Source: Umbelopsis ramanniana AG
Taxonomy: Eukaryota; Mucoromycota; Umbelopsidomycetes; Umbelopsidales; Umbelopsidaceae
DNA: 64,000 bases
Assembly: GCF_025399195.1 (NCBI RefSeq)
Contig: NW_026252114.1
Coordinates: forward strand, 1 to 64,000
Reading direction: 5' to 3'
Under the pieces are notes generated by a model, which saw only the letters and a list, made by a program, of their open reading frames with translations, made no database searches and had not been told where the DNA came from. A program made the translations under genes and the position numbers. Below, one piece after another: positions 48,228-57,159 of this stretch (positions are counted from its first letter, which is position 1; each line of letters begins with the position of its first letter).

Positions 48228-51200
48228 ATGCCCAGAGGAAAGAACACTGGTAACAAGGGTGCAAACGCCCTCCAAACTGTCGACCTCAGCAAGCTAGAAT
48301 CCACTACGGACGAGGACTTGACTCAAATCTTGAAGGCTCGATATGAACAAGATTGCATCTATACACGTATTGGAGATCAAGCCTTGGTATCTGTAAATCC
48401 TAACAAGAGCCTCAGCATTTGTACGGATGATCAGTCTTTAAACTATGTAGCAGAATACAAAGACACTAGTGGTCAGAACGCCAATCAGCTACCCCCGCAT
48501 ATCTTCCAGCTGGTCAACCAAACATATTTGCACATGCGAAGGACTGGTGTGGATCAAAGTATCATTATCAGGTATGTAATGAAATTGCCCAAGGGTAGGG
48601 GGCTATTCAGGGACCCCGTTCAAAAATTTCGTGTTTGAGGACGCCTATCTCTGATCACTAATTTTTTTTTTTTTATGGCAGTGGTGATTCAGGCTCTGGT
48701 AAAACCGATGCGCACAAGTTGGCTCTTCGTCATCTGGTCGCCCTCAGCAGCCATAAGAAGCCTTCCAAGATCCAGACTCAGTTGCTGCATTCTCAAGCTA
48801 TTCTGGAGGCCTTTGGAAATGCAAAGACCACTCAAAACAACAATGCATCTCGTTTCGGACGCTATACGGAAGTTCAATTTTCAGAAAGAGGTCGTATTAC
48901 TGGTGCAAAACTTTTAAATTACTTTTTAGAAAAGCGCCGCGTAACAAGCGCTCCAGAAGACGAACGTAACTTCCATGCTTTCTACTACCTCTTGGCTGGT
49001 GTCCCGGCTGAAGAGAAAGCAGAGTTACGTTTATCCGATCATTCCAGCTTCGCCTATCTCAGTCGATGCCGTTCTCAAACAACCGCCGATGACGCTACCA
49101 AGTTTGAGGAACTTAAAACTTCCCTGAAAGCCTTGGGGTTCCAGAAGAAGCATATTGCTCGCTTGATGCAATTGCTTGCCGCTATTCTTCACTTGGGAAA
49201 CATTATCTTTGTCGACGATCCTTCCAAAGGACAAGACGCAGCCAATGTGAAAAATGTCGAAGTTTTGAGTTTGGCAGCTGATTTCCTAGGCGTGGACCCC
49301 CATGCACTTGAATTGGTGCTGACTTACAAAACTAAATTGATCAAGAAAGATGTGACAACCGTTTTTCTCAATGCGGAGCAGGCCAGTAAACAGAGGGATG
49401 AATTGGCAACAGCATTGTATTCGTTGATGTTCACTTGGATTGTTGAACAGATCAATATTAAGCTGTGCAACGACAATTTCCACAGCTTTATTGGTATCGT
49501 TGATCTGCCCGGTCCTCAAACCACCCAAAGTTCAGGTCAGGCCAAATTTGAACAATACTGTGTCAACTACTCCAACGAGAAATTTCATGACTTCGTTTTG
49601 CGTCAAATTTTCGAGCAAGACAATGACATTTATGAACAAGATGGTATCAAGATGCCCAATGTGCCCTACTTTAGCAATGCAGCCTGTGTCCAATTGTTTG
49701 ACAAACCCTCCAATGGTCTTAACGCTATTCTCAGCGAATGCACCGCCAAAGCGCAAAAACGTACAGACGACAATATGTTGGATTCGTTCGTGAAATACAA
49801 TAACAACCACGATTCCTTCTCCAATCGAAATGCTGATACCGGGGCAAGACAATTTACCGTTCAGCATTTTGCCAATCAAGTTGCATACACCCCTTATGGC
49901 TTTATCGAGGATAACGGTGATGCTCTTAGTGCCGACTTTGTAAACTTATTCCGAGGCAACGCTGAAACATCTGGATCATTTAACTCGTTTGTTCTGAACC
50001 TCTTCTCTCAGCAAGCTGTTTCCACCCAATCTCACCCCAAAAGCTCTGACGATATTGTGGCTGCACAACAAATCGCTAAGCCTGGACGCGCTCCATCCAT
50101 GCGACGTAGCAAGTCACAGCGAAAGTCGGGAACGGGTAAGACGGACCAAGACAATCTCGTCAAGGTGAAAGGTGATACCAAAGGCACCACTGCGGCATCG
50201 ATTGGGGTCATATCACAATTACAATCGGCATTGGAAGAGCTTATCGCTACTCTGGAAGAGACCACACCATGGTTTATCTTCTGTCTCTCCCCCAACACGT
50301 CTGGCTCAGTAAATATGTTTGATTCCAAACGTGTCAAGGCTCAAGTGCGTTCTTATGGCCTTCCTGAAATTGCCAAGCGATGGGCAAATAATTACACCAT
50401 GATCTTGGACCACGAAGAATTCCTTACTCGCTATCAGGATATTCTACTCAGTATGGGGGTTGAGGAAGACAGACTTCCACGATCGAAATGTGAGGCGGTA
50501 GGCACCATGTTTGGATGGACCTCCGCCCAGATGGCTATTGGTAGTATGAATGTAAGTTAAATGAAAAACAACAACAACAACCATGTATCCAAGCGATCAC
50601 GAGAGGAGCTTGTCTCTAATTTTGAACCCCTTTTAGGTATATTTAAGTGAGTCGTCATGGCGAAACCTAGAAGACAGTTTGCGTGGCCAAGATAAAGAGG
50701 AGCAGCGAAAGGCTAAAGAGGAAAGAAAGAAAGACGATGGTATGCAGGCGTTAAGTTCTACTCGTATGGGTCGCCTGGAGAGCGTTGATAGGCTGTCTAA
50801 CCAATCTTATGGATCAGGATCAGAATTGATTCCAGCAGTAGCAGGTGGAGCAGCTGCTGGTGGCCTTCTCAACGTGTATGAAGAGAAATCAGGCTTTTCT
50901 GAAGATCAACACTCATATTACTCTGAAGACGAATATGCTCAAGACGAACAATATAGCGGATATCAAGAGAATGAATCCACTTTCGGCTCAGAGGCGTATG
51001 GAAATGTTCCTGGACGTGAAATGGAAACCAAGCGAATGCTGCCCAACGATACCGACGCTGTTGATATCGACCAAACAGAAAACAAACCAACGGCTGGTCG
51101 TCGAAGGTGGCTTTGGTTCGTTATGTTCTTGACTTGGTGGGTTCCCAAACCTTTCATGATCTGGTGTGGACGAATGAAGCGCAAGGATATCCGTGTGGCA

Positions 51201-54200
51201 TGGCGCGAAAAGTTTGCTCTGTGTATCATCATTTTCTTGATGTCGGCATTCATCATTTGGTTCTTGGTCTTCTTTGGTGAATTGATTTGTCCTCATCAAG
51301 ATGTCTATTCGCAATCCGAACTTCAATCTCACAATGACAAAAATGGTGCCTATGTTGCTATACGTGGTGAGGTATTCGATCTGACGTCCTTTGCACCTCA
51401 TCATTGGGCTATCGATGTTATCCCAGTTAGTTCAATTCTCAACAATTACATGGGCACCGATGCAACCAACTTGTTCCCCGTGCAAGTCTCTGCCTTGTGC
51501 GATGGTACAACTGGCTCCGTCTCTCCATTTGTGTCTCTCGACTATCAGATCAACCTTACCGATACCAATGCTCAATACCATGACTTCCGTTACTTCACAA
51601 ATGATTACAGACCTGACTGGTATTTCGAGCAAATGCAAATGATGCGAAAGCTCTACAAAGTTGGCAGAATGGCATTTGATCCCAGCGATGTTTACAAGCA
51701 AGCTACCACCAGTACAGTTATGAATGGCATTTCAGCTTACCGGCAATGGGCTATCCTGAACAACAACGTCTATGATCTTACTTATTATATCATGGGTGGT
51801 CGCTACTTGAAAGGCCCCAACAATCAAACCGCTCCCGCAGGAACGTCAACAGACTTTTTGGATACCTCAGTGGTCGAACTCTTCCGTCAGCTGGCCGGGC
51901 AAGATATTACCGATAGTTGGAACAAATTGCCATTGGATTCTGCGCTTCGAGATCGTATGGAAGTGTGTCTTCAAAATCTCTTCCAAGTTGGTGTAGTCGA
52001 TAGTCGCAATTCAGCTCGCTGCTTGTTCTCAGAATATCTGTTGCTTATTATCACTGTTCTCCTTTGTGCGGTCATCGTCTTCAAATTCCTTGCCGCATTG
52101 CAACTTGGAAGTCGGCGTGAACCGGAGGAGTACGACAAATTCATCATCTGTCAAGTACCTTGTTACACTGAAAGTGAAGAATCTCTCAAGAAGACCATCG
52201 ATTCTATTGCCGTGCTTAAATACGACGACAAGCGAAAGTTACTCTTCATTATTTGCGATGGTATGTTGATCGGTAGCGGAAATGACCGTCCAACACCTCG
52301 TATTGTGTTGGATATTCTTGGCGTTGATCCTAATGTCGATCCGGAGCCACTTTCTTTCCTTTCTCTTGGTGAAGGTCAAAAGCAACATAACATGGGCAAG
52401 GTGTACTCTGGTCTTTATGAAATTGCTGGTCACGTTGTGCCATATATCGTGGTAGCCAAGGTTGGCAAACCTAGCGAACGTCAAAAGCCTGGTAACCGTG
52501 GTAAACGTGATTCTCAAATGATCTTGATGCGATTCCTCAACAAGGTTCACTTTGACTCTGCCATGACGCCTATGGACCTGGAAATTTTCCATCAGATCAA
52601 AAACGTTATTGGTGTGAATCCTTCCTTCTATGAATTCATTTTGATGGTGGATGCTGATACGGAGGTCTTACCTGATGCTCTTAACCGTATGGTGTCTTGT
52701 TTTGTACACGATGCCAAGGTGATCGGTCTGTGTGGAGAAACTACCCTGGCTAACGAAAAGGACTCTTGGGTCACCATGATCCAAGTTTACGAATACTATA
52801 TTTCCCATCATCTTACCAAAGCTTTCGAGTCTTTGTTTGGATCGGTCACCTGTTTACCTGGTTGTTTCTCCATGTATCGCGTTCGTTCAGCCTTGAAAAA
52901 TCAACCTTTATTGGTTTCTAATCAAGTTATACAAGATTATGAGGTTAACGTTGTCGACACTTTGCACAAGAAGAACTTGCTTCATTTGGGTGAGGATCGT
53001 TATTTGACGACCTTGATTCTCAAGCACTTTCCCAACTACAAGACCAAGTTCACTCCTGACGCTACTTGTAAAACTAACGCTCCGGACACCTGGTCTATTC
53101 TTCTTTCCCAAAGACGTCGGTGGATTAACTCTACCGTTCATAACTTGGGTGAGCTGGTCTTCTTGCCTCAATTGTGTGGTTTCTGCTGTTTCTCTATGCG
53201 GTTTGTTGTCTTCATCGATCTTATCAGTACCCTCGTGATGCCTGCTACCGTTGGTTATATGGCCTATTTGATTTACGAATTGGCGACCTCTCCTAATGGT
53301 GTTCCCGTCTGGTCTATTGTCACTATTGCTGCCGTTTATGGTCTTCAAGCCTTTATCTTCATCATCAATCGCAAGGTATGTTCCATTCACATTTCTTTGG
53401 CTTAATGTTTTACAGTGTGTAATAGCGATAACCTAATATTTTATTGAACTTTTTGCATTTTCATTAGTGGGAACATATTGGATGGATGATCGTCAGCATC
53501 TTCGCTATCCCTGTCTTCTCCCTCTATATTCCAGTGTACTCTTTCTGGCATTTCGATGACTTCTCTTGGGGTAACACTCGTGTTGTGGTTGGAGAAAGTG
53601 GAAAGCGAGTGCTTGTTCCTGAAGATCAAGGCAAATTTGATCCCAAGTCCATCCCAACCATGACCTGGACGCAGTATGAAGAAGGCTTATTCCGAGAAGA
53701 CGGAGCAGGAGCTTGGAATGATAATGCATCTGTTGGATCTCATCGTACGGGTTACACTCAAGGCAGCTACCGTAGCCATCCTTCCCACCAAATGGCCGCC
53801 CAGTCGGCTTATGGCGAAGGAGCCTCCATGTATGATGAACAACTCTATGGTGGACGTAGCCGATCAAGGTCGCCCGCACCTATGGTACCTTTCAATGATG
53901 CTGCATCTTTCCATCCGTCTCTTGGTGGAGGCATGGGTATGAATCCACGCATGTCTACGGCTTACTCTGATATGATGAGTCAACGCGGACCTGCATTCGG
54001 ATCGCAAGCAGACTTTAGTGCTTACGCTATGTCAAGACCTGGTAGCACCATGATGCCGGCGTCATCGTCAATGATGGACTATTACGGAGCAGCAACCTCT
54101 GGATCGGTTCAAGGCGAGGCCATGCCATCGAACGAGCAGATCATGGACGAAGTTCGTAACATTCTTGCCAATGCCGATCTCATGTCCATTACCAAGAAGC

Positions 54201-54301
54201 AAGTCAGAGACAGACTAAGTGAAATGTTCGGAGTTCCCATGTCCAGCAAGAAGGAGTACATCAATAGCTGTATTGAGACCGTCTTGCGCGGAGACAACTA
54301 A
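48228..54301 (+). CDS. Chitin synthase with N-terminal myosin motor-like domain (class V/VII type)
   Basis: Cell-wall enzyme polymerising UDP-GlcNAc to chitin at hyphal tips and septa. Exons 48228-48571, 48682-50551, 50637-53375 and 53468-54301 join in phase to 1,928 residues. Order: myosin motor-like domain (about 1-750) with P-loop GDSGSGKT at 116-123 and switch I NNNASRFG at 167-174; membrane segments; a cytochrome b5-like domain (GAYVAIRGEVFDLTSFAPHHW, about 973); chitin synthase domain with VDADTEV near 1409, EDRYLTTLIL, and the signature QRRRW near 1563; further membrane helices; and a C-terminal DEK_C-like helical domain (about 1873-1926). Switch II reads VDLPGP rather than DIxGFE, so motor ATPase activity is doubtful while the synthase site looks intact. 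No IQ motif was seen. Confidence 0.95.
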
Positions 54302-55159: not shown

Positions 55160-57159
55160 ATGAAGGTTTTCACTCCCCTATCGATTGCTTGCTTAGCACT
55201 CGCTGAAATCGCCCAAGGAGCTGGTGTGACCCTCAGCTTCGGCCGTAAGCACCCTAGCCCCTCCGAAGCTTTGGCTGCCAACAAGGCTCGTGTCGAAAGT
55301 TTGGCCAATGGCCACACTCGCAGCCTTGCCGCCGGGTCAACGACTTACCCTATGTTCAACTCGATTTGGAGTGTATGTATACGAAAAAATATTTGGTACC
55401 TGCATTGAAAAATGAGATCGACAAATAACACTGTCTATATTTAAACTAGTACTTGATCGATGTTGATGTTGGCACTCCCGCAAAGCCATTTACTCTTATT
55501 TTCGACACTGGATCTTCCAACACTTGGATTCCCGACAAGTCCTGTGGTAGCAGCTGCAGTGGTGCTTCTCACGCATTCAACTCCAATACGTCTTCCACCT
55601 GGGTTAGCGATAGTGGCAACACTATGGATATCCAATATGGCTCTGGATATTGCTCGGGAGTTCTTGGAACAGATACCCTTGCTTTCGGTAGCTCACTTAA
55701 GGTGCCTAAACAAGAAATTGGTTTGGCTACAACTGCTGCCAGCTCTATCACCAGCAATGGTGTGGATGGTATTCTTGGTATGGGCCCTGATAGCTTGAGC
55801 GCTGGATTCAACAGCGGTAAGTGGAACCATTTTGCCAACTTGCTTATTGCATGCAAATCAAGAAATTCATTTCTATATAAATAATCAGAGGGCAAGGTCT
55901 TGAAGACCCCTGTCTCCAACATGGTGGCAAATAATCTTGTTACCGAAGACGTTTTCAGCGTTTATTTTGCTCCCGAGCCCGAAGGCGATTTCTCAGGTTC
56001 CGTTAACGGTCAAGTTACCTTTGGTGGCCTTCCGGATTCCAGCTTATACTCTGGATCTATTCAATATGTATCCTTGCTTACAAGCGGCACCGCATCTGTA
56101 AGTGACCACCAGAGGCTGAAATTCAGGGTTCCCGTGTAACCTGATGCACATGTATTTACACAACCTTTTCTCAAAAAGAAATACTGGGGTATTCCTCTCG
56201 ACAATGTCAAGGTCGGTAGCGCTGTTGCCGTCAGTTCCTTTGATGCAATCGTCGACACTGGAACCACTTTGATTATCCTCAGCTCTGCTGCTGCCACTGC
56301 TATCTACAACAAGATTAGCGGTTCGCAGTATAACAGTGATGCCGCCATGTGGGAAGTGCCTTGCAAGACCCTCAGCTCGCTTCCTACTATTACCTTTACC
56401 GTCAACGGTAAATCATACCCACTCACACCTGCGCAATACACAGTTCCTAGCTGGGAGGTGAGTAAAGCGTCTATTGTTCCGCATCCTAACAAATAATAGT
56501 AATACTGACTTGCATTCATTCTGAAGGTCACTTCATGGGGTACCCCTGACACTAACATGTGCTTCTCATATATTGTTGGCGAAGACATTGGTATTCAAAT
56601 CATTGGACAAAAGTTCTTGGAAAACTACGTGTCAGTTTTTGATGCCGATAGCAACCGTCTTGGATTAGCTCCTCGTGCTGGTAGCGTCGATTCATCCGTA
56701 GCTACAACGACCACAACCAAGAGTACTACCACCGCGAAGAAGACTACCACCACCACCAAGAAGACTACTACCACCAAGAAGTCTACTACTACCACCAAGA
56801 AATCTACTACCACCACCAAGAAGCCTACTACTACCACCAAGAAGTCTACTACCACCAAGAAGTCTACCACCACCAAGAAGTCTACTACCACTAAGAAGTC
56901 TACTACCACCAAGAAGGCTACTACCACCAAGAAGACTACTACCACCAAGAAGACTACTACCACCAAGAAGGCTACCAGCACAAAGTCTGCCACTGCCACT
57001 TCCAGCTGTACCAAAAAGTACACTGTAAAGAAGGGTGATACTTGCTCCAGCATTGCTTCCAAACTTGGTGGCACTACTGCTGCCAAAATCATCAGCAATA
57101 ATTCCAAAGTGAATAGTGGCTGCACCAACTTGGACATTGGCCAAGTATTGTGCGTTTAA
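55160..57159 (+). CDS. Secreted aspartic protease with Thr/Lys repeat linker and C-terminal LysM domain
   Basis: Five exons (55160-55372, 55450-55816, 55889-56097, 56179-56457, 56527-57159) join in phase to 566 residues. Residues 1-20 are a signal peptide (MKVFTPLSIACLALAEIAQG), followed by a propeptide. The pepsin-family (A1) fold has both catalytic motifs: FDTGSS with Asp90 and VDTGTT with Asp289, plus YGSGYCSG as flap and the closing segment IIGQKFLENYVSVFDADSNRLGLA. After the usual protease end (about 406) comes a linker of about 100 residues almost only Thr, Lys and some Ser, then a LysM domain (about 515-566) starting KKYTVKKGDTCSSIASKLG, with three or four Cys. LysM binds chitin/GlcNAc polymers, so the protease is likely tethered to cell walls. 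Secretion and wall binding are inference. Confidence 0.93.
56692..57000 (+). repeat. Thr/Lys-coding minisatellite inside the protease gene
   Basis: A tandem array with units of about 15-18 nt (ACTACCACCAAGAAG with TCT, GCT, CCT or ACT inserts) encodes TTTKK, TTTKKS, TTTTKK and similar units some eighteen times. Sixteen or so Lys-Lys pairs sit among Thr clusters. Such tracts are usually heavily O-mannosylated linkers in fungal secreted proteins, and they vary in copy number between strains. Confidence 0.9.

Follow-up and report, generated by a model that had tools for sequence, protein, structure and literature searches.

The window analysed here is a stretch of 64,000 nucleotides of Umbelopsis ramanniana AG (contig NW_026252114.1, positions 1 to 64,000), and the gene of interest, at positions 55160–57159 of the plus strand, encodes a pepsin-type (family A1) aspartic protease joined by a Thr/Lys-rich linker to a C-terminal LysM domain (A1-LysM; all coordinates below refer to the plus strand). 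The gene comprised five exons encoding 566 amino acids (aa), based on a splice model, Pfam matches and a colinear homologue, P0001. Exon 1 (55160–55372) encoded an apparent signal peptide (about residues 1–20) and a propeptide, both called by eye without a predictor, and extended to residue 71. The N-terminal lobe of the protease was encoded by exon 2 (55450–55816), followed by exon 3 (55889–56097) and by exon 4 (56179–56457), which encoded the C-terminal lobe. Exon 5 (56527–57159) carried the end of the protease, the linker, the LysM domain and the stop codon (TAA, 57157–57159). The four introns (77, 72, 81 and 69 nt) were all of the GT-AG type, and since the phases of the exon junctions were 0, 1, 0 and 0, all five exons were in frame. 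Exon 5 contained neither an internal stop codon nor a GTRNG donor. Because this stop-free exon is shared by protease and LysM, a hidden intron between the two is unlikely.

The Pfam Asp domain (PF00026) was detected at residues 71–405 (E 3e-72), covering positions 1–314 of the 315 in the profile. Conservation of the active site was assessed in an alignment of 59 rows (A2), which had P0001 as its first row and did not include the window protein itself. The first catalytic DTG (as DTGS, residues 90–92, 55504–55512) and the second (as DTGT, residues 289–291, 56254–56262) aligned with Asp in 58/59 and 59/59 rows, respectively, and the flap Tyr134 (55636–55638) with Tyr in 59/59. The full-domain profile match, the two DTG motifs and the flap Tyr assign the protein to family A1. 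The bilobal pepsin fold was recovered with the structure model of the homologue P0001 rather than of the window protease (match to 1pso, Foldseek E 1e-32). Cys139 (55651–55653), just behind the flap, was present in the window protein and P0001 and in 0/58 of the other A2 rows; it is possibly unpaired and near the active site.

The linker (residues 407–514, 56677–57000) consisted of 108 aa, including 56 Thr and 28 Lys, with a net charge of +27. At the DNA level, it was made up of 13.8 tandem copies of an 18-bp unit, with 83% matches. The frame stayed open in 35 of 2000 shuffles of the linker DNA, which is modest evidence that the open linker frame exceeds chance. In the structure prediction for P0001, the linker was modelled at low confidence, indicating disorder. 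The LysM domain (residues 521–566, 57019–57156) was identified with Pfam (E 1.1e-11), with a profile search of the genome (E 9.5e-12) and by fold prediction. Its score of 45.0 bits, against a curated Pfam cut-off of 20.9, places it in the LysM (CBM50) family. The cysteines of this region were at residues 517 (just ahead of the profile match), 529, 555 and 565, a four-Cys pattern found in plant chitinase LysM domains, and the predicted beta-alpha-alpha-beta fold was also that of plant chitinase LysM domains. The nearest solved relatives were chitinase LysM domains; by analogy with these relatives, the domain may bind chitin or other N-acetylglucosamine (GlcNAc) polymers. A viral fold search gave two hits to Pandoravirus (E <0.001) and numerous weak hits to phage LysM, none of which bears on the case.

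In the protease homologue search, 445 proteins were scored among the 7997 candidates sharing most words, and rarity was judged on the best 120 of the 445. P0001, an unnamed metagenome-derived protein, was an unbroken frame of 521 aa on a contig of 1,896 bases, which suggests a spliced transcript. It shared 62% identity with the window protein overall and 71% over the protease. The two proteins had the same domain order and aligned without a gap at all four splice junctions, and each of the ten cysteines of A1-LysM was kept in P0001. Their linkers differed, that of P0001 being shorter (64 vs 108 aa) and richer in Lys and Ser. Since order, frame and every Cys are kept at 62% identity, the fusion is not an accident of frame. 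The initial annotation, made from the letters of the window, had claimed in-phase exons for a complete A1 protease with both DTG motifs, a Thr/Lys repeat and a Cys-containing LysM domain, which agrees with the splice model, Pfam and P0001; its placement of the protease end, repeat and LysM in a last exon without a stop is upheld by the open frame of exon 5. Tandem repeats can misassemble, which speaks for an artefact, either separate protease and LysM genes or an assembly error at their junction. This is very unlikely, given that exon 5 is one open frame without a GTRNG donor and that P0001 has the same order in an unbroken protein of 521 aa; we set aside the two-gene or hidden-intron model as very unlikely on the same grounds and on the colinearity of P0001.

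The architecture looks rare. LysM was found in 2/120 of the listed protease relatives, P0001 and P0041 (Umbelopsis isabellina NQZ79_g2514), while the domain table for these relatives assigned LysM to P0001 only. The LysM region of P0041 scored 12.3 bits with the Pfam LysM model, under the cut-off of 20.9, and is therefore counted as a divergent case. With our own LysM profile, its C-terminal LysM scored 43.7 bits, compared with 11.1 bits for the best of 2000 shuffles of the tail. The profile drew on 27 of the genome's 29 LysM matches, on the LysM of the window protein and on segments of P0001, P0024 and P0036, but not on P0041; since the window protein and P0001 both contributed to it, they match it by construction. 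Among 147 retrieved proteins, significant LysM matches in A1 proteins were confined to P0001 and P0041, and the scores of four animal proteases (E 0.09 to 0.8) were taken as chance. The check for further A1 proteins with LysM that the initial annotation had proposed thus yielded P0001 and the divergent P0041. A separate homologue search with the LysM region gave 7 candidates sharing words, none at E ≤0.001; as it did not return the LysM-bearing P0001, it is uninformative on whether more proteins of this type exist.

Like the window protein, P0041 combines an A1 protease, Thr-rich linkers and a C-terminal LysM, here divergent. It differs in length (676 aa), in sequence (39% identity) and in having two Cys-rich modules between protease and LysM. 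These modules (C..GYSGK.NG.GPTGACCT.SDDC...C..G.C, residues 446–491 and 551–596) had no reported Pfam family. A module of the same type ends a small secreted-looking protein at 145.9 kb on the window's own contig (L048, C28).

Among the best 120 of the 445 relatives, U. vinacea and U. isabellina, both of which have been sequenced, were represented not by an orthologue but by the less closely related P0042 and P0041, respectively; no LysM was found in P0042. In a tree of 36 selected rows, two of which had very long end branches, the window protein paired with P0001 (support 99/98) and, apart from them, P0041 paired with P0042 (100/99). The nine-row clade containing the window protein was supported at only 94/87. 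Because the two pairs are separate and P0042 has no detected LysM, either two gains of the domain or losses in several lines are required. P0039, a relative from the Endogonales, carried a Thr/Lys-rich C-terminal tail without a LysM, which suggests that the tail arose before the LysM was added.

The genome searched comprised 22.8 Mb in 123 contigs, and its counts of LysM and Asp matches are lower bounds. A U. isabellina LysM chitin deacetylase matched it at 78 and 74% in the two best stretches, and a U. vinacea A1 protease at 95, 88 and 73% in the three best, which suggests an Umbelopsis (Mucoromycotina, Umbelopsidales) closely related to U. vinacea. The at least 29 LysM and at least 39 Asp profile matches coincided only at 55–57 kb of C28, the locus described here. 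No second A1-LysM gene was found in this genome, although the profile search could overlook a LysM as divergent as the one in P0041. An A1 paralogue on C32 had no LysM in the 4 kb that were read by eye (plus-strand frames ≥45 aa). Linkers similar to that of A1-LysM occurred elsewhere in the genome: on C27 they separate the LysM domains of a chitin deacetylase, and on C14 one follows the LysM of a small protein whose frame, as read, has no enzyme domain. On C11, a LysM was followed by KKSTKK repeats. The linker DNA of A1-LysM and the deacetylase gene had an exact stretch of 38 bp in common, and swapping of LysM modules by recombination inside the linker repeats is plausible. The best reading of these sequences is that A1-LysM was built from a linker-LysM kit that is also used on the chitin deacetylase.

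Other LysM loci were seen in the same genome. An array of LysM-rich reading frames at 125–133.5 kb of C9 (L049) contained 15 LysM matches, and a GH18 chitinase frame lay just beyond it on the same strand (C9, 123.1–124.0 kb). Behind the LysM and KKSTKK linker at 316.8 kb of C11 (L052), a different frame contained a stretch that by eye resembled an expansin-type domain. A locus at 12.9 kb of C44 (L051) and the protein P0036 each combined LysM with an unnamed C-terminal stretch, alike in both by eye.

Taken together, A1-LysM is probably a secreted pepsin-type protease that stays bound to chitin, most likely that of the fungus's own wall. The protein would be secreted and its propeptide removed at acid pH. 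The Thr-rich linker, if O-glycosylated, would serve as a long flexible spacer, and its lysines may stick to polyuronides of the wall. With the LysM docked on chitin, the enzyme could trim or turn over proteins beside it, most likely in the own wall. Several points weigh against such tethering. A single LysM is often a weak chitin binder, and in the second binding loop the usual Asn-Pro is Asn-Ser in the window protein and Asn-Lys in P0001. In addition, proteases could cut the KK-rich linker and free the enzyme, and chitosan, being cationic itself, might repel the positively charged linker. The likelihoods attached to this reading and to its alternatives partly overlap and are not intended to add up to one.

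Cleavage of the linker would be the rule if A1-LysM were instead a precursor of two products, one a soluble protease and the other a small LysM protein that is set free and binds chitin fragments. This is doubtful. The linker is rich in KK, a KR pair lies at residue 465 of P0001, a little ahead of the LysM, and C14 of the genome encodes a LysM protein whose frame, as read, has no enzyme domain. However, KK is a poor Kex2 site, no KR or RR pair occurs anywhere in the window protein, and a linker has been kept between the domains in both the window protein and P0001 despite its differing length.

Upstream of A1-LysM lies a myosin-motor chitin synthase gene (48662–54301; 5' end not mapped), which the initial annotation did not mention. 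Its Pfam domains were Myosin_head (E 3e-124), Cyt-b5, Chitin_synth_2 (E 1e-208) and DEK_C. On the same strand, 858 bp separate its stop codon from the start codon of A1-LysM, which lies downstream; the next gene after A1-LysM encodes a TatD-type hydrolase. When the 39 Asp matches were grouped by coordinates into 23 A1 loci, and chitin synthase matches likewise into 21 loci, A1-LysM was the only A1 locus adjoining a chitin synthase locus. With a gene number of about 9,900, which is assumed rather than measured, the chance of such adjacency is approximately 0.4% for a given gene, and approximately 0.1 A1-synthase neighbour pairs are expected for the A1 genes as a whole.

The neighbouring gene and the deacetylase both bear on whose chitin is the target. 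It is possible, although not likely, that the LysM directs the protease to foreign chitin-protein material (arthropod cuticle, other fungi), from which protein is stripped for food. The same protein anatomy would serve this purpose, and an analogous role has been proposed for chitin-binding proteases of chitin-degrading bacteria: the available part of PMC8802321 describes, with the same rationale, a bacterial protein, upregulated on chitin, in which an M60 peptidase domain is combined with two CBM5/12 domains. Umbelopsis is also a soil saprotroph, as stated in the accessible text of PMC7928374. Against scavenging, another enzyme of this genome with LysM and a similar linker is a chitin deacetylase, and the neighbouring gene is a chitin synthase; in Mucorales, chitin deacetylase and chitin synthase act in tandem on the own wall, according to the passages available from PMC6433966.

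The adjacency also raises the idea of a partnership between the protease and the adjacent myosin-motor synthase, in which the protease would activate or clear synthases or wall enzymes where new chitin emerges. We consider this unlikely, and equally so its elaboration in which the protease acts in vesicles or at the outer face of the membrane, held on nascent chitin by the LysM. The position 858 bp downstream on the same strand, the sole such pair among the grouped loci, is in its favour; yet the adjacency was noticed after the fact and in one genome, fungal gene order seldom reports function, and activation sites of chitin synthases may face the cytosol. In the passages of a 2019 review (PMC7389182), some chitin synthases are zymogens needing proteolysis, the specific proteases were still to be identified, and putative proteases were recovered in pull-downs with three Neurospora synthases. 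In the available text of PMC12653383, yeast Chs1 and Chs2 are given as zymogenic synthases, while yeast Chs3 needs no proteolysis; zymogen status of myosin-motor synthases is not stated in the passages from either source. If the idea were true, A1-LysM would be a concrete candidate for the in vivo chitin synthase protease of early-diverging fungi, and the neighbouring synthase offers a named gene for testing the old question of chitin synthase activation.

The initial annotation had also regarded the architecture as uncharacterised. No description of an A1-LysM protein was found among the literature matches listed (titles, starts of abstracts and some passages), in line with that view, though the proteins P0001 and, as a variant, P0041 have it; the words 'chitin-binding' and 'fusion' do not occur in the retrieved text of PMC8778642. 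A1-LysM is apparently rare, ordinary in its parts and, so far as the searches reach, new as a combination, kept in one close relative: both halves are familiar, but not their fusion. Should A1-LysM prove to be active and to bind chitin, it would show that the LysM kit of fungal wall-polysaccharide enzymes also serves to direct proteases to chitin. A chitin-immobilised acid protease might find use in biotechnology.

With the pepsin family A1 (MEROPS A01A: rhizopuspepsin, polyporopepsin, cathepsin E), the window protein has in common the fold, the two DTG motifs, the flap Tyr and the apparent signal peptide and propeptide. In contrast, 53/59 A2 rows end <15 residues past the protease, where the window protein has 160 more, with linker and LysM. 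Bacterial chitin-binding proteases, such as the Andreprevotia CBM5/12-M60 protein in the part of its description available, likewise combine a secreted protease with a chitin-binding module, but belong to other protease families and use other binding modules. Alteromonas AprIV is presumably another bacterial protease of this kind. Fungal LysM effectors are defined as having no recognised domain other than LysM, and Ecp6 and Mg1LysM are not known to carry an enzyme domain, unlike the window protein with its A1 protease. Of the interpretation given in the initial annotation, the architecture stands and tethering to wall or chitin fits the LysM fold and the kit of the C27 deacetylase; the suggested LysM-effector role finds no support here, where a single LysM is attached to an enzyme and the genus is one of soil saprotrophs. 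The closest parallel in design is the LysM chitin deacetylase of Umbelopsis (P0024 and the C27 protein), in which TTTKK-type linkers likewise connect LysM to a wall enzyme, whereas its catalytic domain is a polysaccharide deacetylase and its LysM domains are several and N-terminal.
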